From positions 10,850,001 through 10,914,000 of the forward strand of contig NZ_CP107853.1 of the NCBI RefSeq assembly GCF_036013525.1: a stretch of DNA of 64,000 nucleotides, given 5' to 3'. The stretch comes from Nonomuraea sp. NBC_00507. Its GTDB lineage: Bacteria; Actinomycetota; Actinomycetes; Streptosporangiales; Streptosporangiaceae. Shown here in pieces: positions 8,244 through 57,134 of the stretch. The position numbers and the translations under genes are program-made. The notes under the pieces were generated by a model that did not search any database, had not been told where the DNA came from, and worked only from the letters and a program-made list of their open reading frames with translations. The stretch's first letter is position 1. Each line of letters begins with the position of its first letter.

Positions 8244-9248
8244 TCAGAGCCGGATGACGATCTTTCCCAGCGCCTTGCCGGAGGCGTAGTACTGGTAGGC
8301 ATCGGGCGCCTCGTCGAAGTCGAAGACGCGGTCTACGACGGGGCGGATCCGGTTGGCCTCGATCGCGCGGTTCATCGTGAGGAACTGCGCGCGGCTGCCG
8401 ACGGCGATGGTGCGTACGGTGGCGCCGGAGGCGAACAGCACCCGCGGGTCGATGGGCGGTGCGGCGTTGGAGACGAAGCCGACGCAAGCGACATGACCCT
8501 CGATCGTCACCGCCTTGAGCGACTGCTCCAGCAGGCCGGCGACGTCCACGACGCGGTCGGCGCCCCGGCCGCCGGTCAGCTCCCGGACCTCGGCGGGCCA
8601 GTCCGGTGTGGCCCGGTAGTCGATGACCTCGTCGGCGCCCAGTTCGGCCAGACGTTGCGCTTTCGCCGGGCTGCTCGTGGTGGCGATCACCCGCGCGCCG
8701 AGGGCCTTGGCGAATTGAAGCGCGAACAGCGACACCCCGCCCGATCCCTGTGTCACCAGGGTTTGGCCTGGTCGCAGGCCGATGCCGTCGCCGGTGAGCG
8801 CGTTCCAGGCGGTGACGGCGGCGCAGGGAAGCGTCGCGGCCTCCTCGTACGACAAGTGATCAGGGATGGGGACGAGCCCGCTCTCCTCGATCACCGCGAG
8901 CTCGGTGAGCATGCCGTCCAGCGAACCGCCGCGCTGCGGCAGGTGCTGGACGCCGAACGGTCCGTCCTGCCAACTAGGGAAGAGCGTGGCGGCGACGCGG
9001 TCACCGACGCGGAACCCGGCGACGCCCGGTCCGACTGCGACGACTTCGCCCGCCCCGTCGGACACCGGGACGACGTCGGGTTTCACCGGCAGCACGTAGT
9101 CGCCGCGCAGCACCATCAGCTCTCGGTAGCTCAGAGAGGTGGCGTGCACGGCCACCACGACCTGCCCGGCCTCCGGTACGGGGTCTTCGTGCTTCCTGAT
9201 CGACAGACCGTCGATCCCGGCACCGCTGTCGACGTGATAACTACGCAC
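8244..9248 (-). CDS. Medium-chain alcohol dehydrogenase / quinone-oxidoreductase-like enzyme
   Basis: 334 residues of the zinc-type MDR family. Visible are the GroES-like N-terminal half (SYRELMVLRGDY, VVPVSDGAGEVVAVGPGV, FRVGDRVAA) and a Rossmann half with QGSGGVSLFALQFAKALGARVIATTSS and a shared substrate end (GKALGKIVIRL). It should reduce or oxidise an aldehyde, ketone or quinone with NAD(P)H; the substrate is unknown. The open frame runs 63 codons further upstream, but GTG at 9246-9248 has GGGGAGG 7 nt before it and the upstream part overlaps a different reading frame that is a SnoaL-like gene start. The pair is divergent from a TetR regulator, which likely controls it. Confidence 0.88.
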   Translation of the reverse strand: MRSYHVDSGAGIDGLSIRKHEDPVPEAGQVVVAVHATSLSYRELMVLRGDYVLPVKPDVVPVSDGAGEVVAVGPGVAGFRVGDRVAATLFPSWQDGPFGVQHLPQRGGSLDGMLTELAVIEESGLVPIPDHLSYEEAATLPCAAVTAWNALTGDGIGLRPGQTLVTQGSGGVSLFALQFAKALGARVIATTSSPAKAQRLAELGADEVIDYRATPDWPAEVRELTGGRGADRVVDVAGLLEQSLKAVTIEGHVACVGFVSNAAPPIDPRVLFASGATVRTIAVGSRAQFLTMNRAIEANRIRPVVDRVFDFDEAPDAYQYYASGKALGKIVIRL

Positions 9249-9372
9249 GGGAGTCCTCCCCATCAGCGGCGGCCAGCGGGACCTCGCCTGCGGAGAGGCC
9301 GGTGAGCGCGGCGGGGTCGTGCTCGACGAAGGCGCGATTGAAGCGGTCGATGACATCGGCAGGGGTACGCAT
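9241..9372 (-). pseudogene. Truncated SnoaL-like (NTF2 fold) gene, 43 codons
   Basis: Reading from ATG 9370-9372 gives MRTPADVIDRFNRAFVEHDP, then AALTGLSAGEVPLAAADGEDSRA and TAG. The first 23 residues match the start of SnoaL-like NTF2-fold proteins, which normally run to about 120 residues; here the rest is missing. GGAG lies 5 nt before the ATG. Its stop falls inside the start of the alcohol dehydrogenase gene, so it may still serve as a leader that couples translation. Either an internal deletion remnant or a retained short leader peptide gene. Confidence 0.5.
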
Positions 9373-9385
9373 GCAGGCTCCGCGA

Positions 9386-9405
9386 GATAGAACGTTCGGT
9401 CTATC
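9386..9405. promoter_or_regulatory. Probable TetR operator between the divergent genes
   Basis: GATAGA (9386-9391) and TCTATC (9400-9405) are perfect inverted arms around ACGTTCGG. The site is 14 bp upstream of the SnoaL-like start and about 52 bp upstream of the divergent TetR gene, the usual place for a TetR autoregulatory site. Confidence 0.55.
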
Positions 9406-9457
9406 GAACCATATCGACCGGTTGATCTACTCGTCAACGGATGGCAGGCTGTGAACC

Positions 9458-10027
9458 ATGAGCACGCGCGCCACGCCCGGCCCCCGGGAACGCCTCCTGG
9501 AGGCCGCCCAGAAGCTGACCTACAGCCACGGCGTGGGCATCGGCGTCGACACCCTGCTCAAAACGGCAAACGTGGCCCGGCGCTCCCTGTACGAGCACTT
9601 CGGCGGCAAGGACGGACTGATCGCCGAGGTGCTCAAGCGCAGCACCGCCGAGGACGAAGCCCGCTACCAGGAGACCATGCAGGCGGCGGGCGACAACCCG
9701 CGTGACCGCCTCCTGGCCATCTTCGACAGGCTCGCCGGGATCATCGCCAAGCCGGACTTCCGCGGCTGCCGCTATCTGGCCGCCGACCTCGCCCTGGCCG
9801 ACCCCGAGCACCCCGGGCACGCCATCACGCGCGACTACCGGCGGCGCGTGCACCAACTCCTCGAGGACGAGCTCATCAAGCTAGGGCATCCGAGGCCCGC
9901 GCACGCGGCCGGCCAACTCCTCCTGCTCATCGACGGCACACTCGCGGCCGGAGCCACCCGGCCCGGCACCGACCCTGCCGCCTCCGCCCGCGAACTCGCC
10001 GAGCAGATCCTCGACACCCGGCGTTAG
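9458..10027 (+). CDS. TetR/AcrR-family regulator
   Basis: 189 residues. An N-terminal HTH is clear (RERLLEAAQKLTYSHG, VGVDTLLKTANVARRSLYEHF, then GGKDGLIAEVL) and is followed by a helical ligand domain with the family C-terminal pattern (AGQLLLLIDGTLAAGATRPG). It is divergent from the SnoaL-fragment/alcohol-dehydrogenase pair with a clean dyad between them, so it probably represses that pair and itself. The inducer is unknown but could be a reactive aldehyde or quinone substrate of the dehydrogenase. Confidence 0.87.
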   Translation: MSTRATPGPRERLLEAAQKLTYSHGVGIGVDTLLKTANVARRSLYEHFGGKDGLIAEVLKRSTAEDEARYQETMQAAGDNPRDRLLAIFDRLAGIIAKPDFRGCRYLAADLALADPEHPGHAITRDYRRRVHQLLEDELIKLGHPRPAHAAGQLLLLIDGTLAAGATRPGTDPAASARELAEQILDTRR

Positions 10028-10052
10028 CCCGGGTCCCGTAGGCGATGCCAGC

Positions 10053-10084
10053 GGCCCACCTCCTGAACGGTCAGGAGGTGGGCC
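10053..10084. terminator. Bidirectional hairpin terminator
   Basis: Perfect 14-bp arms (10053-10066 and 10071-10084) around loop ACGG. It lies between the converging TetR and xylanase genes and can serve both. There is no long T-run, as is common in high-GC actinomycetes. Confidence 0.75.
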
Positions 10085-10094
10085 ACGTTGCGCC

Positions 10095-13010
10095 CTAGTC
10101 GGCCAGGCGGAGGACGCCCCAGTGGCTGGTGTCCAGGTAGGTGCGGCCCGTAGCGTCGTTCCAGGTCACCGCACCGGTACGGGCCGCGCCCGTCGCGTCG
10201 TTCACCTGGACGTCGAAGCCCAGCAGCGTCCCTTCCGCCAGCGTGATCGTGGGCAGTTTGATGGCCGCTTCCACGACATATCCACCAGGCACTGTCTTGG
10301 CCACCGCCGTCACGTTGTCCTTGACGCCGGCCGCGTCGAACGTGCCGCCGACCGTGACGCGGCCGGTGAAGCTGACCCGGTACTGGCCGTCGTCGTCCGT
10401 GTAGCCCTTCGTCTTGCCGTTGCCGGGGTCGACGAAGATCTCGACGGAGTCCTGTTCCCAGGGGTTCGGGGACTCCTCGCTCAGGGTCGGGTCCGTGACG
10501 TGGGCCAGGACGTACAGCGTCGACCCGCTCCACAACGATCTGACGCGCGCAGTGGCGCCGGACGTGCCCTGGATCCAGGTGGCGGTGCGGATGTCCGGCG
10601 CAGCCCGCCAGACCGGCTCCGCGACGCCGTCCACGACGGGGGTGCGGTGGGCGGCGGAGGTGAGCTTGACGGCGGGCACGGCGGTCACCTTGCCCGTCCA
10701 GGAGGTGGCGGTGCTCCCGTCGCGCACGGTCACGTCCACATCGACGCCCTTCTTGACCAGCGCCTCGACGCGATAGCCGGTCGCGGTCCGCTTCACCGCC
10801 GCCTTCGGCCCGCCGGCCCGGGTCACGGTGTGCGCGGTGCCGTCCACGGTGAAGGTCACCTTGTCGCCCGCGCCGACGGTCGTGTCGTTGACCTCGGCCA
10901 GGACGTACATGCCTGTGGCGGCGGAGCGCGCCTGGAAGCCCGCGGACACGTTCCCCACCCGGTCGAGCGGGGCGTCGGGCAGCAGGTCCCACTGCAGGTC
11001 CCGCTTGCCGTCCACCGACACCGTCCCCGCGGGCGCCTCCAGCTTGCGCACCAGCGGCGGCAGCTTGGACGGGTCCGCGACGGCCCAGTACGCGGGCTTG
11101 GCCTGCAGGTCGTGGTCGAAGAGGAGCGGCGCGTTGAGCCGCGGGATCGGCCAGGTGTTCAGCCAGCTGACGTCGTCGGACTCGCCCCACACGGTGACCG
11201 AGCTGAGCTTGGAGGCCTGCCGCCGGAAGACGTCGAACAGCGCCTTGTACCGGTGGCCCTGCTCGGCCAGCAGCTCCGGCGAGATCGACGGGTAGGAGGA
11301 GACGAAGTCGGTGTAGATGCTCACGTCCAGCTCGGTGACCTGCTGGTCCACGCCGAGCGTGGCGAAGCGCTCGATGGTGTCCTCGACGTAGGAGGCGGGC
11401 GGCTGCTCGATGTTGAGATGCAGCTGGTGGCCGACGCCGTCGATCGGCACGCCCTCGGCCTTGAGCTGCTTGACCAGCGCGTAGAGGGCTTCGCGCTTGC
11501 GCGGGAACTCCGTGTTGTAGTCGTTGATGAAGAGCTTGGCGTCCGGGTCGGCCTCGTGAGCGACGCGGAAGGCGGTGCGGATGTAGTCGAGGCCGGCGAT
11601 CTCGTACCACTTGGAGCGGCGCAGCCCGTCCGGCTGGTTCTCGTCGATGACCTCGTTGACCACGTCCCAGGCCGCGATCTTGTCCTTGTAGCGGGTCACG
11701 AGCGCGCGCACGTGGTTCTCGACGCGGCGCAGCAGGGTCTCCTTGTCCGCACCCTCGAACACCCAGGCCGGGGTCTGGCTGTGCCAGACGAGCGTGTGGC
11801 CGCGCACGGTCATGCCGTGCTGGACGCCGAAGTCCACCAAATGGTCGCCGTCGGCGAAGGCGAACTCGCCCTCGCGGGGCTCGGTGGCGTCCCACTTCAG
11901 CTCGTTGCCAGGGGTGATGCCGTTGAAGTGCCTGGCCAGCAGCTCGCCGTGCACGCCGAGCGTGTCGGGCCTGGTGAGCGCCGAGCCCATGGTGAAGGGC
12001 ACCTTGTCCTTCAGCGCGGGGATGTCGGTCTGGATGGGCTTCGGCGCGATGTAGGTCATCGCGAAGTCGTCCAGGTAGAAGGGGAAGGTGCCGCTGTCGG
12101 ACTCGAGGTACACGCTAAGGAAGTCGACGTCGTACGCGAGCGTGTACGTGCCGGCGAGCTGCACCCACTGCCCCGCGGGCACGTCCGTGGGCGGCACGAT
12201 GCGCTCGTAGCTGGGCGTGCCGCCGGTGCGCCGCTCGATCGACAGGCCGAGCCGGCCCGCGGCGGTGTCGGGGCCGAGCCGCACCCACACCGACAGGGCG
12301 TACTTGTCGCCCTTGCCCATCCGGCCGAGCACGTTCATGGCGGGCCCGTCCCAGGTGGCCGACCGGCCGGTGACCGCGAGACTGCGGGCGCCGCCGTGGG
12401 CGGCGGCCGTGCTGGACTCCAGGGTGGCGGCGGCGCGCGGCGACCAGTCCTGCGCAGTGCCGTCCTCGAAGTCGGTGCTGATCGGCTCGCGCGTGGGGTC
12501 GCCCTGGGGGCTGAAGACGATGTCGTCCAGGTAGTACTGGGAAGTGGCGTCGGAGCTCTCGGCATAGAGCTGGAGGTCGGTGGAGTCGGCGGTGAAAAGA
12601 TAGGTGCCGGCCAGCCGCACCCACTCGCCGTCGGTCACGGTGGCCGCCGCGACGCGCTCGTAGGTGGTCTCCCCGCCGGTGGGGGTGCGCTGCACGGTCA
12701 GCGCGATCGTGCTGGCGGGCTGTCCGGTGACGAGCCGCGCGTACGCGGTCACGCGGTAGGTGACGCCCTTGACGAACGGCGCGGCGATCGAGGCCCCGTG
12801 CCAGGTGGCGGTCCGTCCCGTAGTGAGCAGGCTGCTCGTGCCCGCGTGAGCCGCGTCCGTGGTGACCGCGACGGAGACGTCGCCGCCGCGCGGGCCCCAG
12901 CCTTGCGTCGTGCCGTCTTCGAAGTCGTACGTGAGGTCCGCCGCGTGCGCGGGAAGCACCGGCACGAGGCATAAGAGGGCGGCGGCCACCAGGGCTCGGA
13001 GGGTGCGCAC
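10095..13010 (-). CDS. Secreted multimodular GH10 endo-1,4-beta-xylanase
   Basis: 971 residues from GTG 13008-13010, chosen because AGGAG lies 4-5 nt upstream and a clean signal peptide follows (MRTLRALVAAALLCLVPVLP, cut after AHA). Then two CBM4_9/CBM22-type modules (about 25-170 and 175-325; DFEDGT..W.PRG, ending YYLDDIV and YLDDFAM). The GH10 barrel runs about 330-665, with acid/base Glu in WDVVNEVID and nucleophile in QVTELDVSIY. Two CBM9/DOMON-type modules follow (about 680-825, 830-971). It cleaves xylan backbones outside the cell, feeding the GH43 at 4272. Upstream lies a GAAACTTTC box resembling the streptomycete XlnR operator. It is longer than most GH10 enzymes because of the four binding modules. 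Confidence 0.95.
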   Translation of the reverse strand: MRTLRALVAAALLCLVPVLPAHAADLTYDFEDGTTQGWGPRGGDVSVAVTTDAAHAGTSSLLTTGRTATWHGASIAAPFVKGVTYRVTAYARLVTGQPASTIALTVQRTPTGGETTYERVAAATVTDGEWVRLAGTYLFTADSTDLQLYAESSDATSQYYLDDIVFSPQGDPTREPISTDFEDGTAQDWSPRAAATLESSTAAAHGGARSLAVTGRSATWDGPAMNVLGRMGKGDKYALSVWVRLGPDTAAGRLGLSIERRTGGTPSYERIVPPTDVPAGQWVQLAGTYTLAYDVDFLSVYLESDSGTFPFYLDDFAMTYIAPKPIQTDIPALKDKVPFTMGSALTRPDTLGVHGELLARHFNGITPGNELKWDATEPREGEFAFADGDHLVDFGVQHGMTVRGHTLVWHSQTPAWVFEGADKETLLRRVENHVRALVTRYKDKIAAWDVVNEVIDENQPDGLRRSKWYEIAGLDYIRTAFRVAHEADPDAKLFINDYNTEFPRKREALYALVKQLKAEGVPIDGVGHQLHLNIEQPPASYVEDTIERFATLGVDQQVTELDVSIYTDFVSSYPSISPELLAEQGHRYKALFDVFRRQASKLSSVTVWGESDDVSWLNTWPIPRLNAPLLFDHDLQAKPAYWAVADPSKLPPLVRKLEAPAGTVSVDGKRDLQWDLLPDAPLDRVGNVSAGFQARSAATGMYVLAEVNDTTVGAGDKVTFTVDGTAHTVTRAGGPKAAVKRTATGYRVEALVKKGVDVDVTVRDGSTATSWTGKVTAVPAVKLTSAAHRTPVVDGVAEPVWRAAPDIRTATWIQGTSGATARVRSLWSGSTLYVLAHVTDPTLSEESPNPWEQDSVEIFVDPGNGKTKGYTDDDGQYRVSFTGRVTVGGTFDAAGVKDNVTAVAKTVPGGYVVEAAIKLPTITLAEGTLLGFDVQVNDATGAARTGAVTWNDATGRTYLDTSHWGVLRLAD

Positions 13011-45495: not shown

Positions 45496-45972
45496 TCACA
45501 CGCCCATGCTGCGGCGCACTCCCTCCAGAGCCTGCTCGGCCTGTGCGCGCAGGCCGGGATCCTCGGGGTCGAGGCCCTCGTCGAAGACGAGGGTCCAGCC
45601 CAGCACCTCGCCGCCGGGCCGGCGCCTGGCCACCAGCCGCACGCCGCCCCGGCCGGGCAGCTTGACGTGCTTGTTCACCACGATCGTGGCGTTGACGCGT
45701 TCCCGGACGGTCTCGGGCAGCATGCGCGGCTCGTCGATGCGCTCGGCGTAGGACCCGCCGTCCATGGTCGTGATGATCAGCCCCTCCTCGCTCCACGATG
45801 CCTTGTCGATCGTCTCGTAGGGCACCCGCGTCCCGTCGGGCAGGTAGAGGGCGAGGTTCGTGGCGACGAGGAAGCCGCCGGCCTGACCGGGCGCGAACGT
45901 CAGCACCCGCTCCCCCGGCTCGGTGGTCAACGATTTGCGCACGTCGGCGGGCAGACGGCGGAAGATGCTCAT
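45496..45972 (-). CDS. Hypothetical PH-like domain protein (158 aa)
   Basis: Starts MSIFRRLPADVRKSLTTEPG. The core (GERVLTFAPGQAGGFLVATN, LALYLPDGTRVPYETIDKAS) reads like the beta-barrel of bacterial PH-type domains (YokE/SHOCT-like) that occur in small actinobacterial proteins. Its ATG overlaps the stop of the upstream hydrolase gene (ATGA), so they form an operon. There are no membrane segments. Function unknown. Confidence 0.72.
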   Translation of the reverse strand: MSIFRRLPADVRKSLTTEPGERVLTFAPGQAGGFLVATNLALYLPDGTRVPYETIDKASWSEEGLIITTMDGGSYAERIDEPRMLPETVRERVNATIVVNKHVKLPGRGGVRLVARRRPGGEVLGWTLVFDEGLDPEDPGLRAQAEQALEGVRRSMGV

Positions 45973-47243
45973 TCCTCAACGGTATCGGCGAGCAGGTCGA
46001 GGGTGAGCGCCGCGCTCCAGGAGAAGTCCCGGCAGCCCCGGCCGCTGCCGTCGAAGGGGTCGAAGCACTCCCGGAAACCGGCCTGCCTGACCAGGCGCAG
46101 CGTGCCGTTGGTGAGCTGCTGGGCGAGATGGTCGAGCGAATGCACGGCCGCGGCCCGGCGCAGCAGCCAGTTGGTGTTCACCCACGAGGGCCCGCGCCAG
46201 TAACGGGTGCGGTCGAACTGGGTGGCGCGGATCTCGCAACTGGGCACCGGGTAGCCGGTGGCGCCCATGAACCTGGCCGACTCCAGCATCTCGACGGCGG
46301 CGTGCAGGTGCTCGCTGGGCAGCCAGGGGTCGAGCAGCGGCCCGAACCCGCCCACTGTGGACACTCTGATCAGCCGGTCGGCCCGCAGGTCCCTGGCGTA
46401 GAAGCAGCCGTCCCACAGGCGCTCGAGCATGGCCTGCCTGATGCGCGCGGCCTGCTCGACGTGGGGTGCGGGATCGGCGTGCGCGAGCGGCGCCAGCTCC
46501 GCCATGGCCTGGCAGGAGGCCAGCCAGATCCCGTTGAACATCGGGTCCTCGACCGCGAAGGGGTGCTCGTCACGCAGGTAGCCGGGGCTGTATCCGGCGT
46601 CGCGGTAGCGCATGGCGAGCCAGACGTAGCGGTCGTGGTCGCTGTCGGGGTGGCGCTCCTCGAGCTCCACGTGGCGGTAGCCGTACCTGATGACGGGCAG
46701 CGCGGCCAGCGGCTCGTCCCAGGCGGGGCTGTCGTCCATGCCCGACTCCCACGGGTGCACGATCGCGGCGAGCCCCGCGCCGCCGAGGTCGCGGGCCGAG
46801 GCGAGGTAGTCGTGCTGGGCGACCAGCGCCGGGTACGCCTTCCTGACGAACGCCTCGTCGCCGGTGTGCTGGTAGAGCCACCACAACGCCAGCCCGTGCA
46901 GCGGCGGCGCGGTCAGTCCCGAGGTGAGCACGTGCGGCGCGGCCTCGTGCTCCTGTGAGCGCCATACGGAGGGTCCGGGAAAGTACGCCTCGCGCGTGTG
47001 GAAGACGATGTGCGGCACCATCCCCGTCGCCCACTGGCCGCGCAGCAGGCTGAGGAGCTCGTCGCGAGCCCGGTCCGGCCGGTGCCTGGCCAGGCCGATG
47101 ACGACGAAGGCGGAGTCCCAGCTCCATTGGTGCGGATAGAGGCCTGGCGCGGGCACGGTGCCAGTGCCCGTCCAGTTCGCCTCGAGCACGGCCATGGCCT
47201 CGCGCCCGAGCGCGGCATCGTCAACCGCCGGCCGCGCCTCCAT
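45969..47243 (-). CDS. MGH/GGH-like (GH63-related) glycoside hydrolase, cytoplasmic
   Basis: 424 residues. The (alpha/alpha)6 barrel motifs of mannosylglycerate/glucosylglycerate hydrolase-like GH63 proteins are clear: YPHQWSWDSAFVVIGLARH, GMVPHIVF, HPWESGMDDSPAWDEPL (with the catalytic Asp), a YRDAGYSPG region, RYWRGPSWVNTNWLLRRA and FRECFDPFDGSG. It likely hydrolyses a glucosyl- or mannosylglycerate or a related short glucoside. No signal peptide. ATG 47241-47243 is chosen; CATAGT ends 6 nt upstream, fitting leaderless expression. It is the first gene of a pair with the PH-like protein. Confidence 0.83.
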   Translation of the reverse strand: MEARPAVDDAALGREAMAVLEANWTGTGTVPAPGLYPHQWSWDSAFVVIGLARHRPDRARDELLSLLRGQWATGMVPHIVFHTREAYFPGPSVWRSQEHEAAPHVLTSGLTAPPLHGLALWWLYQHTGDEAFVRKAYPALVAQHDYLASARDLGGAGLAAIVHPWESGMDDSPAWDEPLAALPVIRYGYRHVELEERHPDSDHDRYVWLAMRYRDAGYSPGYLRDEHPFAVEDPMFNGIWLASCQAMAELAPLAHADPAPHVEQAARIRQAMLERLWDGCFYARDLRADRLIRVSTVGGFGPLLDPWLPSEHLHAAVEMLESARFMGATGYPVPSCEIRATQFDRTRYWRGPSWVNTNWLLRRAAAVHSLDHLAQQLTNGTLRLVRQAGFRECFDPFDGSGRGCRDFSWSAALTLDLLADTVEE

Positions 47244-47275
47244 CACCCAACTATGACTGGGGATCCCTCAGGAAG

Positions 47276-47609: not shown

Positions 47610-48797
47610 ATGAGCCTGGGACCACCTATGAGCAGGGAAGGCGTCGAGCACGCACTGCGCGCTCGGGCCGACGAACGCGACCGCATCTCCGGCGACCTGC
47701 TCGATCTCGAATCCCATACCACTTACCGGTTACTCAAGGGGGCCACCTTACGCGGCGCGACCGAACAGCGCTGGGCCACGGCGCAGGAGTCACTGGCCCG
47801 TCTCTGGCGGCTGAACGACGCCTATCGCGCCGTGTTACGCGACGCCGAGCAGATCAAGGCCGCGCGGAGCAGGCTGAGCACCGAACAACTGGCCGAGCTG
47901 ACCGAGCTGCTCGCGGGCACGTCCGTGTTGTTGCGGGCCGCCGCCAAACCCGTCGAGCAGCGCTCGCTGCTGCCCGAGGCGGACGAGCGGCTGACCCTCG
48001 ACGCCACCGTCACGCAGATGGACGCAGCGTTCCGGGACGTCACCTCCGCCCTCAACGACATCGACGCCCAGTGGAACACCCTGCTACCCCGCCTCGACAC
48101 CGCCGGCGCCGAGCTGCGGCGCATCCGCGAGCTGGAGCAGGATCTCGGCGAGAGCGCCGCCGGCCTGGACACGCTGGAAACGGAGCTGAAGCGGATGCGT
48201 GCCGCCGTCGTGGAAGACCCGCTCGGCGCGGCCGTCGAGCCCGATCTCGACCGGGTCGCCCGGCTCCTGACCGCCTCGCTGGCCGAGCTGGAGCTGGCCG
48301 TCGTCGTCAAGCAGGACTACGCCAGGCGCCGCGAGAACCTGGAGGCCGCGCTGGACCGGGTACGCGCGGCCGAGAGCGAGGCCAGGCTGGCCCACGGCGC
48401 GGTCGTGGTCAAGATCGCCCTGCCGCCCCAGGCCCAGCCCAGGAGCAGGGTCGACGCCCTGACCGGCGCGCTGGACGCCCTCGACGTCTCGGCCGACACC
48501 TGGGTGCTGCGGGCCAAGCGGCTGGCGGAGCTGGAAAGCGACGCCGACGGGGCGGCCGAGCAGGCGCAGACCACCGCGAAGGCGCTCTACGGGCTGGTCA
48601 GCAGGCGTGACGAGCTACGCGGGCGGCTCGGCGCCTGCCAGGTGATGGCGGTACGCAGGGGGATGGCGGAGGACCCGGCCGCCACCGGCCTGTTCGCACG
48701 GGCCCGCGCGTTGTTGTGGAGCGCCCCGTGCGACCTGACGAAGGCGGCGGCCGCCGTCGAGGACTATCAGCGCGCGATCCACGGAGGGACGTCATGA
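47610..48797 (+). CDS. Coiled-coil protein, first gene of the kinase cluster
   Basis: 395 residues starting MSLGPPMSREGVEHALRARA; GGGGAG lies 4 nt before the ATG, and a GTG three bases earlier and an ATG 18 bases later are alternatives. Long heptad-rich helices cover most of the chain (for example RIRELEQDLGESAAGLDTLE, ELELAVVVKQDYARRRENLE). No enzymatic motif or membrane segment is visible. Its stop overlaps the PknG-type kinase start (ATGA), so it is expected to act with it, perhaps as an adaptor or as a scaffold linking the other components. No known function. Confidence 0.75.
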   Translation: MSLGPPMSREGVEHALRARADERDRISGDLLDLESHTTYRLLKGATLRGATEQRWATAQESLARLWRLNDAYRAVLRDAEQIKAARSRLSTEQLAELTELLAGTSVLLRAAAKPVEQRSLLPEADERLTLDATVTQMDAAFRDVTSALNDIDAQWNTLLPRLDTAGAELRRIRELEQDLGESAAGLDTLETELKRMRAAVVEDPLGAAVEPDLDRVARLLTASLAELELAVVVKQDYARRRENLEAALDRVRAAESEARLAHGAVVVKIALPPQAQPRSRVDALTGALDALDVSADTWVLRAKRLAELESDADGAAEQAQTTAKALYGLVSRRDELRGRLGACQVMAVRRGMAEDPAATGLFARARALLWSAPCDLTKAAAAVEDYQRAIHGGTS

Positions 48798-50935
48798 GCC
48801 GCTGCGCGCAGCCAGGCTGCACGGGCACGATCGACGAAGGCTACTGCGACCTGTGCGGCACCGCGGAGAGCTCTCCCGCGCCTCCCGCCTCGTACCGGAC
48901 CCAGCCTTCGTCGCCGCAGACCAACCCGGTGAGCCGGCCGACCAGCGGGCCGACGAGCAGCGGCAGGTCGCGGGCCGGGGTGCTGGCCACCATCGCCGAC
49001 CTGCCGTCGGCGCCCTACCGCGACCCGGCGACCGCCGTGATGACCAACCCCGAGGTGCCCGAGGAGAAGCGGTTCTGCGCCAACCCCGACTGCGGCAAGC
49101 CCGTCGGCCGCTCCAGGGACGGCCGGCCCGGGCTCACGGACGGGTTCTGCCCCCACTGCCGCACCGCGTTCTCCTTCACCCCGAAGCTGGACAAGGACGA
49201 CCTGGTGGCCGGCCAGTACCGGGTGCTGGGCTGCCTGGCGCACGGCGGGCTCGGCTGGATCTACCTGGCCGCCGACGAGAACCTCGACGGCCGGTGGGTG
49301 GTGCTCAAGGGCCTGCTCAACACCAACGACGCCGAGGCGCTGGCGGCGGCGGAGGCCGAGCGCAAGGTGCTCACCACCGTCGATCATCCCAACATCGTCA
49401 AGGTGTTCAACTTCCAGCGTTCGGCCGGGCTCGGCTACATCGTCATGGAGTACGTCGGCGGCCAGTCCCTGCACGAGCTGCGCCGCCAGGGCCCGCTGCC
49501 GCTGCGCGAGGCCCTGATCTACGGGCGGGAGATCCTGCAGGCGTTCGGCTACCTGCACGAGGCCGGCCTGGTCTACTGCGACCTGAAGCCGGCCAACGTG
49601 ATCAGGGTCGGCAAGGGGCTCAAGCTCATCGACTTGGGCGCGGTGCAGCCCCTCGGCTCGCCGCCGGGCACGTCGTGGGCCACGCGCGGCTATCACGCCC
49701 CCGAGCTGGAGACCCATCCGTCGTCGGTGACCTCCGACCTCTACACCGTCGCCAGGACGCTGGCGGTGCTGACGATCCCGGGGTTCAGCCCGGTCGTGAA
49801 CGGCAATGCCGCCCCGCTGCCGCAGGACTGCGGGCATCCGTCGTTCACCCGATGGCTGCGCAGGGCCACCGCCGTCCATCCGGCCGACAGGTTCCAGAGC
49901 GCGTGGGAGATGGAGGAGCAGCTCCTCGGGGTGTTGCGCGAGGTCTGCGCCCAAGAGGAGGGGGTGCCGTACCCGCACCCGTCGACCCTGTTCGGGCCCG
50001 AGCGGGGCGCGGTGGGGACGGCGCTGTCGGAGACCGACGATGAGGTGTTCGGGCCGCTCGACCCCGTCGTGGTCGCGCACCGGCTGCCGGTGCCGCTGGT
50101 CGACCCGGGCGACCCGGCCGCGGGCGCGCTGGCCGGGCTGCTCGGCCGGGACGGCAAGGAGCTGCTGGACCAGCTCGCCGCGATGCCGCCGACGCCCGAG
50201 ACGAAGCTGATGCGGGCCAGGCTGCTGGCCGAGGAGGGCGCGGCGGAGACGCCCGTCGCGCTGAGCGCGCTGGCCATGGAGCTGCCCGGCGACTGGCGGG
50301 TCACGTGGTACCGCGGCGTTCTGGCGCTGGCCACGGGGCAGATGGGGCAGGCGGTGTCGATGTTCGACTCCTGCGTGTCGCTGGTGCCCGGTGAGCTGGC
50401 GCCGAAGCTGGCGCTGGCGTTCGCGCTGGAGTGCGCGGGACAACAGTCGGGCCCGTCAGGCGCGGCCTCCTGGTACGAGAGCGTCTGGCGCACCGACCAC
50501 GGCTGTGTGAGCGCGGCGTTCGGGCTGGCCAGGACCGGCAGGATGGGCGTGCTCGACGAGGTGCCCGCCACGTCGAGCCACCGGATGGCGGCGCAGGTCG
50601 CGCTGGCCGCCTCCGCGGTGCGCCGCCCCGACCCGGACGCGATCACCCCCGGCGATCTGGTGGCCGCGGCCGGCCGGCTGGCGAACCTGCCGGACCTCGA
50701 AACGCGCCGCCGCGAGTTGCTGACGGCCGAGTTGCTCCACGGCGGGCTGACCTGGCTGGAGACGAACGCACCGCCGCCGGACCTGGAGCTGGCCGGAGCC
50801 CGGTTCACCGAGCCAGGGCTGCGCAGGCGACTGGAGTCCATCTACCGCAAGCTCGCCGTCACGGCGAACTCCCGGCAGGAACGCTACGCGCTCATCGACC
50901 AGGCGAACGCCGTGCGACCGAGGACATGGCTGTGA
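48794..50935 (+). CDS. pknG: PknG-type serine/threonine kinase with zinc ribbons and TPR tail
   Basis: 713 residues. An N-terminal zinc ribbon (C4, C9, C18, C21) is followed by a Pro/Ser-rich linker, a rubredoxin-like pair of CxxxxC...CPHC (C95, C100, C119, C122), the kinase (about 141-395) and a TPR region (about 440-680). Kinase motifs are LAHGGLGWIYLA, catalytic Lys K172 in VVLKG, YCDLKPANV (D263) and LIDLGAV (D280), the last two being the PknG versions of HRDLKPEN and DFG. The mycobacterial PknG (750 aa) has the same order but no extra N-terminal ribbon. Known role: senses Glu/Asp status via GlnH/GlnX and phosphorylates the FHA protein GarA to control 2-oxoglutarate use. GGAGGG precedes the start and the gene overlaps both neighbours. 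Confidence 0.9.
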   Translation: MSRCAQPGCTGTIDEGYCDLCGTAESSPAPPASYRTQPSSPQTNPVSRPTSGPTSSGRSRAGVLATIADLPSAPYRDPATAVMTNPEVPEEKRFCANPDCGKPVGRSRDGRPGLTDGFCPHCRTAFSFTPKLDKDDLVAGQYRVLGCLAHGGLGWIYLAADENLDGRWVVLKGLLNTNDAEALAAAEAERKVLTTVDHPNIVKVFNFQRSAGLGYIVMEYVGGQSLHELRRQGPLPLREALIYGREILQAFGYLHEAGLVYCDLKPANVIRVGKGLKLIDLGAVQPLGSPPGTSWATRGYHAPELETHPSSVTSDLYTVARTLAVLTIPGFSPVVNGNAAPLPQDCGHPSFTRWLRRATAVHPADRFQSAWEMEEQLLGVLREVCAQEEGVPYPHPSTLFGPERGAVGTALSETDDEVFGPLDPVVVAHRLPVPLVDPGDPAAGALAGLLGRDGKELLDQLAAMPPTPETKLMRARLLAEEGAAETPVALSALAMELPGDWRVTWYRGVLALATGQMGQAVSMFDSCVSLVPGELAPKLALAFALECAGQQSGPSGAASWYESVWRTDHGCVSAAFGLARTGRMGVLDEVPATSSHRMAAQVALAASAVRRPDPDAITPGDLVAAAGRLANLPDLETRRRELLTAELLHGGLTWLETNAPPPDLELAGARFTEPGLRRRLESIYRKLAVTANSRQERYALIDQANAVRPRTWL

Positions 50936-51792
50936 CCGGGGACACCGCGCGCGCCGCCTGCTGCCCGGTCTGTGAAGCTCCCGTGCTCGCGGGCGACACC
51001 TACTGCGAGGCCTGCGGTCATCCGCTGGGCGCTCCCACGTGCGCGTCCTGCGGAGCGGCCGCCGTCGACGCGGAGGGCTACTGCGAGCGGTGCGGCCTGC
51101 GCCAGCCCACCGGGCGGGACCACGCGGAGACCGTGCTGGACAACGGCGCGGCGGCCCTGACGGACAGAGGGCTGCGCCGCAGCCGCAACGAGGACGCGAT
51201 GGCGCTGCTGGCCTCCGGCGACACGGTCGTGACCGTGGTGTGCGACGGAGTGGGCAGCTCGCCCAGGGCCGATGAGGCCTCCGCGGTGGCGGTGGAGACC
51301 GCGGCCGCCGGACTGGCCAGGGGGTTGTCGCAGGAGGAGGCGTTCGAGCTGGCCGGCCGGGCGGTGACCAAGCTGGCGACCTCCGTGTACGACGCTCCCG
51401 CCTGCACGTACGTCGCCGCCGTGGTCGAGCGGGACCGATTCACGCTCGGCTGGGCCGGTGACACGCGGGCCTACTGGTTGCCGGAGCCGGGCTCGGCGAT
51501 CGGATACAGCTTGCTGACCGAGGACGACGCGGTGGAGACCGGCGAGATCACCGCCTGGCTCGGGGCGGACGCCGAAGACGTCACGCTCCACGTACGGACC
51601 TTCACCCCCGCCGCGCCCGGCCTGCTGCTCGTCTGCAGCGATGGCCTGTGGCGCTACCTGGACGGCTACGCCTTTCCCCGCTCCGGTGCCCCGCTCGACA
51701 TGGCCCGCGAGATGTTGCGGCACGCACTGGACTCAGGCGGCCAGGACAACGTGACGATCGCCTTGATCCCCTTAGGAGATGCCCGTGAGTGA
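50932..51792 (+). CDS. PP2C-type phosphatase with double zinc ribbon
   Basis: 286 residues. GTG 50932 overlaps the kinase stop and has GAGG 8 nt upstream; ATG 50926 is an alternative. The first 55 residues hold two zinc ribbons (CCPVCEAPVLAGDTYCEACG, CASCGAAAVDAEGYCERCG). The rest is a PPM/PP2C phosphatase with metal-binding Asp motifs SRNEDAMALL, VVCDGVGSS, GWAGDTRAYW, CSDGLWRYLDG and GGQDNVTIAL. It should remove the phosphates added by the neighbouring kinase. Its ribbons match those of the kinase and FHA protein, which suggests a shared docking partner. Soluble. Confidence 0.9.
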   Translation: MTGDTARAACCPVCEAPVLAGDTYCEACGHPLGAPTCASCGAAAVDAEGYCERCGLRQPTGRDHAETVLDNGAAALTDRGLRRSRNEDAMALLASGDTVVTVVCDGVGSSPRADEASAVAVETAAAGLARGLSQEEAFELAGRAVTKLATSVYDAPACTYVAAVVERDRFTLGWAGDTRAYWLPEPGSAIGYSLLTEDDAVETGEITAWLGADAEDVTLHVRTFTPAAPGLLLVCSDGLWRYLDGYAFPRSGAPLDMAREMLRHALDSGGQDNVTIALIPLGDARE

Positions 51793-53071
51793 CCAGCCCA
51801 CTTTCACGTTGACCATCGACCAGAACAAGTACCTCCCCCTCGACGGCCGCGAGGTGCACGCCATCCTCACCGTCGGCTCCACAGGCGGCGTCACCACGCA
51901 GGTCGTGCCCGCCGATGCCGCCGAGGTGATCATCGTGGACACGTCGGGCTCGATGAGCGGCGGCAAGATCCGCGAGGCCCGGCAGGCCGCCGCCACGGCC
52001 GTGCGGACGCTGCGCGACGGCGTGCTCTTCGCGGTGATCGCCGGGACCGAGTCGGCCAAGATGGTCTACCCGGGCGGCAGTCCGCGCCTGGTCAAGGCCA
52101 CCGCCGCCACGAAGGCGGAGGCCGAGCGGGCGATCGGCCGGCTGCTCGCGCACGGCGGCACCGCCATGGGCGAATGGCTGAAGCTGGCCGGGCACGTGTT
52201 GTCCGCGCATCCGTCGGCCATCAAGCACGCGCTGCTGATGACCGACGGCCAGAACAACGAGAGTGCCGAGGTCTTCGGCAACGTCCTGGCGGGCTGGAGC
52301 GGCAAATTCGTGTGCGACTGCCTCGGGGTCGGCGACGACTGGGTGCCGGCCGAGCTGCGGAAGGTGGCCGAGGCGATGCTCGGCACGTTTGACTTCGTCC
52401 GTAACCAGGGGGATTTGCCGGAGTACTTCCGTCGACTCACGCAGACGTCGATGAGCAAGACCGTGGCGGAGCTGTCGCTGCGGGTCTGGGTGCCGCAGAC
52501 GGCGCAGCTCAAGTTCGTCAAGCAGGTCTCCCCCGTGCTGCTGGACCTGACCGGCAAGCGTGCCGACGTCAACCCGCTGACCGGCGACTACCCGACCGGG
52601 TCCTGGGGGGCCGAGGAGCGCGAATACCACGTGTGCGTCGAGGTGCCGCCCGGGCAGGTCGGACAGGAGATCAGGGCGGGCTGGGTCAAGCTCGTACGCC
52701 CCGACACCGGGGACGTGGTGGCCAGCGGCAACGTCCTCGCCCAGTGGACCGACGACCTGGCGCAGTCCACCCGGATCAACGGAAAGGTCGCCCACTACAC
52801 CGGCCAGGCCGAGTTGCACGACCTGATCCAGGATGGGCTGAGCGCCCGGGCGATGGGCGACGTCGACACCGCCACCGCCCGCCTGGCCAAGGCCAGGGAA
52901 CTGGCCGCCGAGTCGGGCCGCGAGGACACCGCGCGGCTGCTGGAGAAGGTGGTCGAGGTCGATCCCGCCACCGGCACGGCCAGGCTGCGCAGGAACGTCG
53001 ACAAGGCCGACGAGATCGAGCTCGACACCGGATCGGTCCGCACCAGCCGGCTGCGCAAGGAAGGAAACTGA
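51785..53071 (+). CDS. von Willebrand factor A (vWA) domain protein
   Basis: 428 residues. GTG 51785 has AGGAG 6 nt upstream; ATG 51779 is an alternative. The vWA domain spans about 45-215 with an intact MIDAS: VDTSGSMSGGK (DxSxS), then GGTAMGEWL (Thr) and LLMTDGQNNES (Asp). The C-terminal part has a beta-sandwich-like region (SLRVWVPQTAQLKFVKQVSP) and a helical tail (ATARLAKARELAAESGRED). vWA proteins of the TerY type are known partners of PP2C and kinase proteins in ter-like stress systems. No membrane segment. It overlaps its neighbour at 53071 (TGATG). Confidence 0.87.
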   Translation: MSDQPTFTLTIDQNKYLPLDGREVHAILTVGSTGGVTTQVVPADAAEVIIVDTSGSMSGGKIREARQAAATAVRTLRDGVLFAVIAGTESAKMVYPGGSPRLVKATAATKAEAERAIGRLLAHGGTAMGEWLKLAGHVLSAHPSAIKHALLMTDGQNNESAEVFGNVLAGWSGKFVCDCLGVGDDWVPAELRKVAEAMLGTFDFVRNQGDLPEYFRRLTQTSMSKTVAELSLRVWVPQTAQLKFVKQVSPVLLDLTGKRADVNPLTGDYPTGSWGAEEREYHVCVEVPPGQVGQEIRAGWVKLVRPDTGDVVASGNVLAQWTDDLAQSTRINGKVAHYTGQAELHDLIQDGLSARAMGDVDTATARLAKARELAAESGREDTARLLEKVVEVDPATGTARLRRNVDKADEIELDTGSVRTSRLRKEGN

Positions 53072-53748
53072 TGGCGACCTGCCCGCAGGGGCACGCGTCC
53101 GGCGCCGACGACTACTGCGACGTGTGCGGCGCCCAGATGGCCTCCGCGCCTCAGGCGCCCGCCCCGGCTCCCACCTCCACCCCGGCCGCCGCCGAGAGCT
53201 GCCCCATCTGCCAGACGCCGCGTGCCGGGCAGTTCTGCGAGGTGTGCGGCCACGACTACAGCAACGCTGGATCCGCAGCGCAGCGAGGAAACCCAGCGCT
53301 GCACTCCGAGCAAGGCGGCAGTGCTCCCTTCCGGGTCCCAGCGGCCAGGTGGGAGGCCGTGACCGCCGCCGACCGCGCCTACTACGAGAAGGTCATCGCC
53401 GAGGGCGGTCCCGACGCCGACGCGGTCGCGTTCCCGCCGTACTGCCCCGAGCGCTCCTTCGGCCTGTACGGCGACCAGGTGCGCATCGGGCGGCGCAGCC
53501 GGGCCAGGAACCTGGAGCCCGAGATCGACCTGACCGGGCCTCCCGAGGACCCGGGCGTCTCGCACCTGCACGCCGTGCTGCTGGCGCAGCCGGACGGCTC
53601 CTGGACGCTGGTCGACCCGGGGTCGTCCAACGGCACCCAGGTGAACGGCAAGCTCCTCAAGGTCAACGTGCCCGTTCCGATCCGCCCCGGCGACCGCATC
53701 CACCTGGGCGCGTGGACCGTCATCACCCTCAGGGAGGGCACACCATGA
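53071..53748 (+). CDS. FHA-domain protein with two zinc ribbons (GarA/OdhI-like role)
   Basis: 225 residues. Two zinc ribbons lead (CPQGHASGADDYCDVCG, CPICQTPRAGQFCEVCG), then a linker and a C-terminal FHA domain (about 130-225) with RIGRRSR, VSHLHAVLL and SSNGTQVNGK. In the FHA fold this set binds phosphothreonine; the His of the usual G-x-S-R-x-H is kept, and the Arg of that motif is replaced by Leu. It is the likely substrate or reader of the neighbouring kinase, the place that GarA/OdhI takes in mycobacteria and corynebacteria. Unlike those, it has no clear phosphorylatable N-terminal ETTS motif. Confidence 0.88.
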   Translation: MATCPQGHASGADDYCDVCGAQMASAPQAPAPAPTSTPAAAESCPICQTPRAGQFCEVCGHDYSNAGSAAQRGNPALHSEQGGSAPFRVPAARWEAVTAADRAYYEKVIAEGGPDADAVAFPPYCPERSFGLYGDQVRIGRRSRARNLEPEIDLTGPPEDPGVSHLHAVLLAQPDGSWTLVDPGSSNGTQVNGKLLKVNVPVPIRPGDRIHLGAWTVITLREGTP

Positions 53749-55130
53749 CCGTGATGGCCCCCGGCCGGGCCGTGGTGGCGCCGGGCGGGGCGGCCCCGCC
53801 GCCGGTCCGCAGGAGCGTGCCCGGCAGGATCCGGGTCATCTCCGGCATCACCGTCGCCTCGCTGGCGCTGCTGTTCGCGGCCCTCGCGGTCGGCAGCGCG
53901 AGCGCCCGCGACGGCCTGCAGGTCATCGGCCACGACGCCGGCCCTCAGGTGGTCGCCACCGCCGGGCTGCACCTCGCGCTGAGCGACATGGACGCGCAGG
54001 TCGCCAACATCCTGGTGATGGGCAACGGGTGGGCCAACCTGCGCCAGAAGGCCATGGTCCAGTACGAGCAGCGCCGGTCCGAGGCCAACCGGGCGCTGCT
54101 GAAGGCGTTCGAGTTGTCGGGCGACAACCCGGCCGAGCGGCGGACCGTGGAGTCGGTGCTCGACGGGCTCGGCGCGTACGAGCGGCTGGCCGGGCAGGCC
54201 CTGGTGCTCGACAAGCGGGCGAACCATCCTCCGGGACCGCCGCCCGAGGACGTCGTGGCGATCTACCGCCAGGCCACCGACCTGATGCGGAAGGTGCTGC
54301 TGCCGCAGGCGTACAACCTGACCCTGGAGACCGGCACGATCGTGCGCAGCACCTATGACGAGAAGGCGGTCATGGTGCCGCTCCTGCGGGTCGCGGTGGT
54401 GCTGGCCGGGCTGCTCGCGCTGGGCTGCCTGATCTGGCTCCAGGTCTTCCTGGCCACGCGCTTCCGGCGCATCCTGGGGCCGGCGCTGCTGGTGGCCACG
54501 GTGGCGACCGCGGTGGCGATGATCTCCGGGGCCGGCGCGCTCGGGCGGGATCAGGAGGCGCTGCGGCAGGCGAAGTCGGCCGGCTTCGATCCGGTGCTGA
54601 CGCTGGCCAGGGCCCGTGCGATCAGCACCAGCATGCAGGGCGACCAGAGTCGCTACCTGCTGGACAAGGAGCGGGCCGACACCTACGAGCACACCTACCT
54701 CGACAAGTCGCTGTCGCTCATCTACAGCCCGGCAGGCAACCTGAGCGCCTACCACGGCGTCGTCAGCAAGGGTTCGGCGAGCGGCTTCCTCGGCCTGCTG
54801 GGACCCGAACTGGTCGGCAAGCAGGGCCAGGAGGTGATGCGGGCGTACCAGCGGTTCCAGGCTGCCGACGAGGCATTCCGCGACCTGGTGACGAGCGGCC
54901 GCACCGCCGAGGCGGTCCCGGCGCGACTCGGCCAGGTCAGCCAGGCGTTCGGCGCCTACGACCGCTCGCTGGTGGCGCTGACCGACCGGCATCAGGACGA
55001 GTTCGAGCGCGCGATCAAGCGCGGCGAGAGCACGCTGGACAGCCTGTGGACGCTGGAGGAGTTCGCGATGGGGGCGATCGGCCTGCTGGTGATCGGCGGG
55101 GTGTGGCCACGACTCAAGGAGTACCGGTGA
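53745..55130 (+). CDS. glnX: GlnX-like membrane sensor protein
   Basis: 461 residues. One membrane helix near 30-55 (ISGITVASLALLFAALAVGS) leads to an extracytoplasmic helical region. A helix pair near 215-265 (MVPLLRVAVVLAGLLALGCL, ILGPALLVATVATAVAMISG) brings the chain back out to a second helical region, and a final helix lies at the C-terminus (AMGAIGLLVIGGV). This is the layout of GlnX, which in Mycobacterium sits with GlnH and PknG and passes ligand status to the kinase. The start overlaps the FHA stop (ATGA). No enzymatic motif. Assignment rests on topology and position more than on residue identity. Confidence 0.75.
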   Translation: MTVMAPGRAVVAPGGAAPPPVRRSVPGRIRVISGITVASLALLFAALAVGSASARDGLQVIGHDAGPQVVATAGLHLALSDMDAQVANILVMGNGWANLRQKAMVQYEQRRSEANRALLKAFELSGDNPAERRTVESVLDGLGAYERLAGQALVLDKRANHPPGPPPEDVVAIYRQATDLMRKVLLPQAYNLTLETGTIVRSTYDEKAVMVPLLRVAVVLAGLLALGCLIWLQVFLATRFRRILGPALLVATVATAVAMISGAGALGRDQEALRQAKSAGFDPVLTLARARAISTSMQGDQSRYLLDKERADTYEHTYLDKSLSLIYSPAGNLSAYHGVVSKGSASGFLGLLGPELVGKQGQEVMRAYQRFQAADEAFRDLVTSGRTAEAVPARLGQVSQAFGAYDRSLVALTDRHQDEFERAIKRGESTLDSLWTLEEFAMGAIGLLVIGGVWPRLKEYR

Positions 55131-55936
55131 AACGGGCGCTGGTGATGGTGCTGGCCCTGGCCGCGACGCTGGTCGCGGGCTGCGGGACCGGGGAGCCGGA
55201 GTCGATCGTCGATGACGACGAGGTCCTGCGCATCGCGGTGCGCGAGGATCTGCCCTCGGTCGGGTTCCTGCGGCCCGACGAGGAGTACGAAGGCTTCGAC
55301 GTGGACGTGGCCCGGTACATAGCGGGCAAGCTCGGCAAGGACTACCACCTCGTCCCCGTGCTGGCGGCGGACCGGGAGCAGGTGCTGCTCGACGGGCGGG
55401 CCGACATGGTGGTGGCGACGTACACGATCAGCCAGGACCGCAAGGCCAAGGTGCTGTTCGCGGGGCCGTACCACATCTCCTACCAGGACATCCTGACGCG
55501 GCCGGAAGAGACGATCACGAACGTGCGCGATCTCAAGGGCCGCAGGATCTGCGAGGTCCAGGGCTCGAACGCGGCCCAGCGGGTCGTCCAGGAGCGGAGT
55601 GTGGCGGCGGAGCTCGTGCCGTTCGCCGACTACGCGCAGTGCCTGGCGGCGCTGAAGGGCAAGAAGGTGGACGCGGTCACCACCAACGACGTCATCCTGG
55701 CGGGCCTGGCCAAGCAGGACGGGTCGGGGCTGCGGCTGAGCAACGCGCAGTTCAACGAGCAACGCACCGGGGTGGGCCTGCGCAGAGGGGATGTGCCGGG
55801 CTGCGAGGCGGTCAACCGGGCGATCACCGACATGTATCAGGACGGGACGGCGGCGAAGCTGCTGCACAAGTGGTTCGACGGGTCGGGGCTGGACCTGAGC
55901 ACGATCGCGGTACCGCAGTTCGAGGGCTGCTCCTGA
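55127..55936 (+). CDS. glnH: GlnH-like solute-binding lipoprotein
   Basis: 269 residues. Signal VKRALVMVLALAATLVAGCG with lipobox VAGC, then a type 3 periplasmic-binding fold: RIAVREDLPSVGFLRPDEEY, GFDVDVARYIAGKLG, DMVVATYTISQDRKAKVLFA, VRDLKGRRICEVQGSNAAQR and AVTTNDVILAGLA. Glutamate/aspartate or glutamine is the usual ligand. No permease or ATPase genes follow, so it should act as a sensor rather than a transporter part, as in the mycobacterial set. GTG 55127 overlaps the GlnX stop (GTGA) and follows AAGGAG. It is the last gene of the cluster and ends at a hairpin. Confidence 0.87.
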   Translation: MKRALVMVLALAATLVAGCGTGEPESIVDDDEVLRIAVREDLPSVGFLRPDEEYEGFDVDVARYIAGKLGKDYHLVPVLAADREQVLLDGRADMVVATYTISQDRKAKVLFAGPYHISYQDILTRPEETITNVRDLKGRRICEVQGSNAAQRVVQERSVAAELVPFADYAQCLAALKGKKVDAVTTNDVILAGLAKQDGSGLRLSNAQFNEQRTGVGLRRGDVPGCEAVNRAITDMYQDGTAAKLLHKWFDGSGLDLSTIAVPQFEGCS

Positions 55937-55985: not shown

Positions 55986-57134
55986 TCAGTCCAGGTAGTC
56001 CCGCAGCATCTGGGCGCGCGTCGGGTGGCGGAGCTTGGCCAGGGTCTTCGACTCGATCTGGCGGATGCGCTCCCGCGTGACCCCGAACTCCCTGCCCACC
56101 TCCTCCAGCGTGCGCGGATGCCCGTCGGCCAGGCCGAAGCGCAGCTGGATGATGCGCTGCTCGCGGTCCGACAGCGTGGCCAGGATGTCGTCGAGCTGGT
56201 CCTGCAGCATGATGAAGGCCGCGGCCTCCATGGGCACGACAGCGTCGGCGTCCTCGATGAAGTCACCGAGGTCGGAATCCTCCTCGCCGATCGGCGACTG
56301 CAGCGACACGGGCTCCTGGGCGATGCGCTGGATCTCCACCACCCGATCGACAGGGAGATCCATCTCCTTGGCGATCTCCTCGGGAATCGGCTCGCGGCCG
56401 AGGTCCTGGTGGAGCTGGCGTTGCACTCTGACGAGCTTGTTGATCGTCTCCACCATGTGCACCGGGATGCGGATGGTCCGTGCCTGGTCGGCGATGGCCC
56501 GGGTGATCGCCTGCCGGATCCACCAGGTCGCGTAGGTGGAGAACTTGTAACCCTTGGTGTAGTCGAACTTCTCGACCGCCCGGATGAGCCCGAGGTTGCC
56601 CTCCTGGATCAGGTCCAGGAACAACATGCCGCGGCCCACGTAGCGCTTGGCGATCGACACCACGAGCCTGAGGTTGGCCTCGATGAGCCGCTGTTTGGCT
56701 CGGGTGCCCTGCCAGACGAGCTCCCTGAACTCCGGGAAGGCCAGACGCGAGACCCCGTTGGCCAGCTTGTCCTCGGCGAACAGGCCGGCTTCGATCGACT
56801 TGGCGAGCTCCACCTCCTCCTCGGCGGTCAGCAGCGGCACCCGGCCGATCTCCCGCAGGTAGATACGGACGAGATCGCTGGTCGGGGCCCGTTTGCCTAG
56901 GTCTTCCTCATCGGCGCGGGTGGATTCCTCGTCGCCCTGGGGCTCGAGGACCTCCACGCCGTTCTCGGCGAGCATCCGCACGACGCGTTCCAGCGCGTCG
57001 GACGGCAGCTCGGATCGGTCAAGCGCGGCTGCGACGTCATCGACGGTTACGCTCCCGCGCTCTCTTCCCTTCGCGACGAGGTCCGCCACCTGATCTACCG
57101 ATGGCGGACTGCTTGGCAGCACCGATGCACCCAC
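55986..57134 (-). CDS. RNA polymerase sigma-70 factor, group 1/2 (HrdB/SigB-like)
   Basis: 382 residues. Conserved regions are all present: 1.2 ([20 protein letters not shown]), 2.1-2.4 ([60 protein letters not shown]), 3 ([14 protein letters not shown]) and 4.1-4.2 ([35 protein letters not shown]). The region 1.1 part is short (about 90 residues) compared with the 160 or more of streptomycete HrdB, so it may be the principal factor of this group or a secondary one. GTG 57132-57134 has CAGACT ending 7 nt upstream, a leaderless arrangement. Confidence 0.93.

Follow-up and report, generated by a model that had tools for sequence, protein, structure and literature searches.

We consider it probable (at roughly 0.6) that the seven co-directional, tightly packed genes at positions 47610 to 55936 of the window, the whole 64,000-nucleotide stretch of Nonomuraea sp. 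NBC_00507 DNA that was analysed, form a complete membrane-to-cytoplasm Ser/Thr phosphorylation unit, and that this unit represents the actinobacterial GlnH-GlnX-PknG pathway in a fuller, probably older form. The gene identities, the conserved active-site residues, the synteny and the C-terminal tail of GlnX are seen directly. From these, and from the published signalling model (PMC6069109, PMC8546545, PMC9769921; here and below, papers are cited for selected passages), we infer the ligand, contacts, substrate, reset and physiological output. The GlnH lipoprotein would bind an extracellular amino acid, probably an acidic one, and ligand-bound GlnH would act on the helical bundles that GlnX is predicted to have in the periplasm. 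From there the signal would reach the TPR domain of PknG by way of the little of GlnX that lies in the cytoplasm, namely an arginine-bearing loop and a C-terminal R-[LIV]-x-E-Y-R tail. PknG would phosphorylate FHA-type substrates, GarA/OdhI being one candidate and the FHA protein of the cluster another, and the PP2C phosphatase would reverse this, while the vWA, zinc-ribbon and helical proteins would hold the parts together near GlnX.

Gene layout and domain content

All seven reading frames lie on the + strand and were confirmed as real. Successive genes overlap by 4, 10, 14, 1, 4 and 4 bases. The third overlap depends on the start of the vWA gene: it falls to 8 bases from a GTG at 51785, which has a better-spaced Shine-Dalgarno sequence than the ATG at 51779. 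The first-pass annotation gave overlaps of 1 to 11 bases at every junction, which holds with the GTG start and fails with the ATG. Its naming of the seven products was borne out by Pfam and NCBIfam models, as was the presence of a GlnH-GlnX-PknG core with its own phosphatase and its own FHA protein. The cluster is flanked on one side by an MGH1-like glycoside hydrolase gene (45969-47246, - strand) and on the other by a gene for a sigma-70 factor with regions 1.1 to 4 (55986-57134, - strand).

The kinase (48794-50935, 713 residues) has the domain order that defines PknG, with PknG_rubred at residues 68-132 (85 bits), Pkinase at 146-326 (93 bits) and PknG_TPR at 394-711 (261 bits), preceded by an extra N-terminal zinc ribbon that was read from the sequence. 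It matches the solved structure 2pzi with 473 bits, is linked to glnX and glnH, and carries the only PknG_TPR match in the whole 12.9 Mb genome. The motifs YCDLKPAN and LIDLGAV are present and align across homologues, and the ATP-binding Lys, the catalytic Asp and the DLG are intact. In 100 of 101 rows every key residue is in place (Lys, catalytic Asp and Asn, and both the Asp and the Gly of DLG/DMG); the exception is L162 (L denotes a fetched locus, G a genome, f a family and g a genus code). The earlier proposal would have been refuted by a GlnX unrelated to its namesake and a kinase unable to bind ATP; GlnX matches its family model, as described below, and with the ATP-site motifs in place the kinase is predicted to bind ATP.

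The PP2C phosphatase (50926-51792, 288 residues) matches PP2C_2 with 54 bits, and its N-terminal double zinc ribbon scores 28.5 bits. Its metal motifs align across homologues, the columns (NED, DG, DG, DN) being complete in 63 of 66 rows, all except L112, L153 and the gapped L165. The vWA protein, which ends at 53071 and has 428 residues from the GTG or 430 from the ATG, matches VWA_3_C (82 bits) and VWA_3 (54 bits). Its MIDAS (DTSGSM, GGT, TDG) is present and also aligned, with the DxSxS, T and D columns complete in 70 of 72 rows (L083 and L112, both gapped, are the exceptions). It is homologous over residues 3-427 (438 bits) to the solved structure 4fx5, which the structure table names simply 'von Willebrand factor type A', with no function stated there. 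TerY-P systems contain triads of kinase, PP2C and vWA, and the adjacent vWA, PP2C and kinase genes are present here as in such a triad. Membership of TerY-P implies a TerY-type vWA protein with the TerY C-terminal domain; the cluster protein matches the VWA and VWA_3_C models alone (Pfam, E<=0.01), and the suggested TerY-P affiliation is not borne out. In a check for ter genes the two flanking genes were scanned, and these are the glycoside hydrolase and the sigma-70 factor.

The FHA protein (53071-53748, 225 residues) has zinc ribbons and an FHA domain (54 bits), and all three FHA motif patterns are found in 65 of 69 homologues. It has no match to the NCBIfam OdhI model NF041660 at E<=0.01. 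An identification of this protein as GarA was considered and rejected, because the GarA/OdhI orthologue is encoded by a separate gene 2.7 Mb away.

The first gene (from 47610, 395 residues, or from an ATG at 47628, 389 residues, to 48797) encodes a helical-bundle protein that had been called a coiled-coil protein. It has no Pfam match at E<=0.01 and a single NCBIfam match, at 14.6 bits against a cut-off of 300. It nevertheless has 539 relatives at E<=1e-3; the top match among the best 120 of these is from Nonomuraea turcica, with 97% identity. AlphaFold2 predicts a well folded protein (mean pLDDT 92.2) that is helical almost throughout. A Foldseek search gave no significant match, the structurally nearest protein being EzrA, also not significant.

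Distribution and history of the cluster

PknG_TPR was searched for in three samples: 396 genomes of the phylum (49 matches at E<=0.001, 31 over the cut-off), 121 genomes of the order (80 with a match, 75 over the cut-off) and an even sample of 345 genomes of the class (117 at E<=1e-20). Around matches hand-picked to spread families, 100 regions of mostly about 20 kb were fetched, and synteny was scored with profiles grown from the cluster proteins at the 101 loci, including the Nonomuraea cluster, with PknG of at least 200 bits. In this sample, which is non-random and rich in Nonomuraea's own family, all seven genes occur together at 49 of 101 loci, and a further 11 have six, the helical gene alone going undetected. 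GlnX, GlnH and PknG stand alone at 14 loci, these being 12 of the 14 from f4, one from f115 and one from f1; L113 (f1) and L167 are of this kind. A second type of cluster has PknG and vWA without PP2C or FHA, and is represented by seven fetched loci (L079, L090, L092, L095, L124, L127 and L158).

The gene order is not the same everywhere. In Nonomuraea's family it runs helical-PknG-PP2C-vWA-FHA-GlnX-GlnH, and in the Streptomyces-like f3 and several other families GlnX-GlnH-helical-PknG-PP2C-vWA-FHA. At L150, in a genome of another class, GlnX-GlnH lie on the strand opposite the rest. Among named genomes, the best 80 of 529 relatives' loci in a scan with the helical protein are all Streptomycetaceae by title; all seven genes are found in one order at 65 of these 80, and at 58 of 60 when the locus is not cut short.

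The vWA protein gives an independent view. In the class sample it has 96 matches in 77 genomes, at least 76 of them on the same strand as a PknG_TPR match and within 5 kb of it, and 75 of the 77 genomes also have PknG. Among the remaining 20 are matches on contigs with no listed PknG, matches that look like paralogues, and matches from two genomes for which no PknG was listed; the phylum sample shows a PknG next to at least one of them (G193). Conversely, vWA went unmatched at E<=1e-30 in 42 of the 117 genomes with PknG (29 from f4, eight from f1, four from f92 and one from f100). These absences are soft, because just five first-look candidates were scored per genome. The grouping of the genes is more than chance. 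The first-pass annotation called for a search for conserved synteny of the seven families, and would have been refuted had they rarely occurred together; the counts above (49 of 101, at least 76 of 96, and 58 of 60) put them together often.

A quick PknG tree (68 rows, SH-aLRT support alone, with the one row of another class as root and some forks near the base left open) places the seven-gene rows of f8/f86/f111, f92 and f3 outside a group (support 94, not starred) that holds Nonomuraea's family and the three-gene f4, as well as f115 and a few second-type rows. Three-gene f4 is thus nested among seven-gene lineages, and the tree needs no more than five switches between 'core' and 'with accessory genes'. 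From gene order among other signs f4 appears to be Mycobacteriaceae-like, and f3 is presumably Streptomyces, having the same gene order as named Streptomyces loci. The first-pass annotation had proposed that two plans were fused here. Given that the set occurs in several families and a second class, with the three-gene form nested inside, loss is simpler than a local fusion. On the simplest reading of these sequences the seven-gene form would be the older, and f4, f115 and a few f1 members such as L113 would have lost genes; this suggests that the well-studied three-gene mycobacterial operon is a cut-down remnant. The route from GlnH through GlnX to PknG that had also been proposed largely stands; the 'fusion' gives way to an old and widespread arrangement. 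One f4 genome has, besides its usual PknG, an extra one with a vWA gene adjoining (G735:C144:1026-4280), perhaps a regain or a transfer.

The receptor pair, its docking tail and the output

GlnX (53745-55130, 461 residues) scores 280.2 bits against the NCBIfam 'GlnX family' model NF058618, above the cut-off of 250, and has no match in the Pfam copy scanned. Its hydropathy has three transmembrane peaks above threshold, and a fourth at the C-terminus was read by eye. The AlphaFold2 model (pLDDT 92) consists of long helices and is consistent with two bundles and little cytoplasmic part; it has a local likeness to the sensor domain 3va9, with no Foldseek match at E<=0.001. Across an alignment of 96 sequences (effective number 46.5 after weighting), two arginines never vary, R242 in a loop and R456 in the tail, and E459 and Y460 rank with the best conserved positions. 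The Nonomuraea protein ends in RLKEYR, and an exact C-terminal [ED][YF]R is found in 84 of the 96, most of the other 12 carrying a similar motif there or close by. The R-[LIV]-x-E-Y-R tail is also carried by most f4 GlnX proteins and by a second GlnX of the Nonomuraea genome. In C. glutamicum, GlnX is described as having an N-terminal region, a loop of 11 residues and a C-terminus of eight in the cytoplasm, with the TPR domain of PknG as the proposed partner (PMC9769921, PMC8546545). As a conserved peptide at the very C-terminus that may face the TPR groove, the tail is a candidate docking site; the passages on GlnX in those two papers make no mention of it.

It is worth adding that three of the seven second-type loci (the PknG-vWA-GlnX clusters L090, L092 and L127) encode a GlnX whose N-terminus carries a fused zinc ribbon resembling the one in the FHA protein; no such ribbon was seen at the other four. 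These three form one clade, and so count as one fusion event, which suggests that the FHA-type ribbon may work beside GlnX.

The GlnH-like lipoprotein (GTG start, 55127-55936, 269 residues) has a lipobox-like LVAGC, and matches SBP_bac_3 with 97 bits, GlnH of structure 6h1u with 92 bits and 5eyf with 96 bits. The residues that form the Asp/Glu pocket of GlnH are R147, T162, S164, R169, W232 and D250 (PMC6069109), and here they are R, T, T, R, Y and N: three are identical, the S164 to T change keeps the hydroxyl, and two are changed. The Tyr at W232 is also found in 5eyf, which binds Glu (PMC6069109), and the Asn at D250 is found in all seven Nonomuraea rows and in none of the 64 other rows aligned. 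An acidic amino acid is likely but not certain as the ligand, because R147, T162 and R169 are kept and W232 and D250 are changed. The GlnH proteins of L108, L110, L113, L114 and L117 have Asn in place of Arg169, the residue by which the backbone of the ligand is held in the known structure; this suggests a changed ligand.

A second GlnX-GlnH pair is located at 7.59 Mb in the same genome (L172, about 8435-10557, - strand), and the surrounding 20 kb gave no kinase match. Its GlnH2 is 51% identical to the cluster GlnH, and probably has a different ligand, because Gln replaces the Arg that binds the side chain of an acidic ligand. In the order sample, where GlnX is found at E<=1e-25 in 75 of 121 genomes, second copies away from any PknG_TPR match occur in at least four (G000, G486, G514 and G476).

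On the output side, the GarA/OdhI orthologue lies at 8.2 Mb (L175), with 147 bits to GarA and 180 bits to the OdhI model, below its cut-off of 200. The genome has one C-terminal match to 2-oxoglutarate dehydrogenase, in a frame of 1250 residues. Nonomuraea GarA has an N-terminal zinc ribbon, as do all sequences read from f1, f3, f86, f92 and f42, the reading having been confined to these families, f4 and f115; four f4 sequences and one from f115 have none. The ribbon is no marker of the pathway, because it is also found in genomes without a PknG_TPR match (G398, G411 and G424). All 59 distinct genomes queried have a GarA match; of the 59 loci fetched, 47 were read automatically and 12 were missed by the pattern, three of these, from Nonomuraea, being read separately. 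The PknG site of OdhI is Thr14 (PMC2784874). In GarA the residue at the Thr14 position may be T, S, V, Q, N or R, while the Thr that follows is almost constant among the 47. Nonomuraea, f3 and several f1 genera have Thr at the Thr14 position and other f1 genera Ser; all five g239 genomes read have Val there, and all four from f92 have Gln. As several of these g239 and f92 genomes keep full clusters, phosphorylation of GarA at the Thr14 site cannot be the universal output, and in these genomes PknG either uses the second Thr or acts mainly on a different substrate. GarA is a candidate output.

These substitutions are one reason to consider that in seven-gene lineages PknG bypasses GarA and 2-oxoglutarate dehydrogenase altogether, acting mainly on the FHA (or vWA) protein of the cluster, with an output in, for example, development or the envelope. 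Another is that an FHA protein with well kept motifs is co-encoded. We think this improbable, given that GarA is present in every genome queried, that the second Thr is nearly always kept, that the PknG-site Thr is retained in Nonomuraea and the f3 rows, and that PknG regulates OdhI in Corynebacterium (PMC9769921).

It is also unlikely, in our view, that the PP2C, vWA, FHA and helical genes are a separate stress- or conflict-type module that travels with the PknG core and acts outside GlnX-PknG signalling. TerY-P offers one precedent for such a module. Another is provided by the triads of kinase, PP2C and vWA described in actinobacterial GAP1-N2 conflict systems (PMC7159879). The genes are moreover dispensable, to judge from the three-gene f4 loci, L113 and L167, and from the PknG genomes without a vWA match. 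Against this, the cluster contains no other kinase for such a module, the vWA family is almost absent where PknG is absent, the genes overlap, and in one clade the ribbon is fused to GlnX.

Returning to the single phosphorylation unit, a wider version of it is possible, and we put it forward tentatively. The seven genes would encode one membrane-anchored complex: interchangeable GlnH-GlnX receptor pairs would share one PknG, docking in its TPR groove by means of the conserved C-terminal R-[LIV]-x-E-Y-R, and a resident phosphatase and a scaffold of vWA, FHA and zinc-ribbon parts would complete it. The second, kinase-less pair, with its different pocket, would feed the same kinase, and the tuberculosis-type three-gene operon would be what remained after loss of scaffold and phosphatase. 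If the seven-gene form is indeed older, laboratory strains of Streptomyces offer a tractable complete system with a candidate phosphatase, scaffold and docking motif, and the question of how GlnX switches PknG on becomes directly testable. The lineages concerned include antibiotic producers, and the 2-oxoglutarate/glutamate node may affect yields.

Comparison with known systems

With the TerY-P triads, the cluster shares a zinc-ribbon kinase, a PP2C and a standalone vWA protein that are encoded together. The same is true of the GAP1-N2 systems (PMC7159879), and the triad as such is therefore a known theme. Unlike either, Nonomuraea has a PknG-type kinase with TPR, a GlnX-GlnH receptor pair, an FHA protein and VWA_3_C; the word PknG is absent from the main text of PMC7159879. 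No description of the seven-gene form was found in the literature, as judged by titles, the starts of abstracts and passages.

The cluster is also close to the GlnX-GlnH-PknG-GarA/OdhI pathway of Mycobacterium and Corynebacterium (PMC6069109, PMC9769921, PMC8546545), as far as the cited passages describe it. Both have adjacent genes, a PknG with rubredoxin, kinase and TPR domains, a GlnH-type solute-binding lipoprotein, and GarA and 2-oxoglutarate dehydrogenase encoded at other places in the genome. The Nonomuraea GlnX is above the family cut-off, and its hydropathy and model are consistent with the published four-transmembrane plan. The differences are the pocket changes in GlnH (W232 to Y and D250 to N), the second GlnX-GlnH pair, beside which no kinase was found, and the extra N-terminal zinc ribbon on both PknG and GarA. 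Finally, the literature on mycobacteria and corynebacteria describes, in the same passages, an operon of three genes, none of them for a phosphatase, whereas Nonomuraea has four extra genes, for the helical, PP2C, vWA and FHA proteins.
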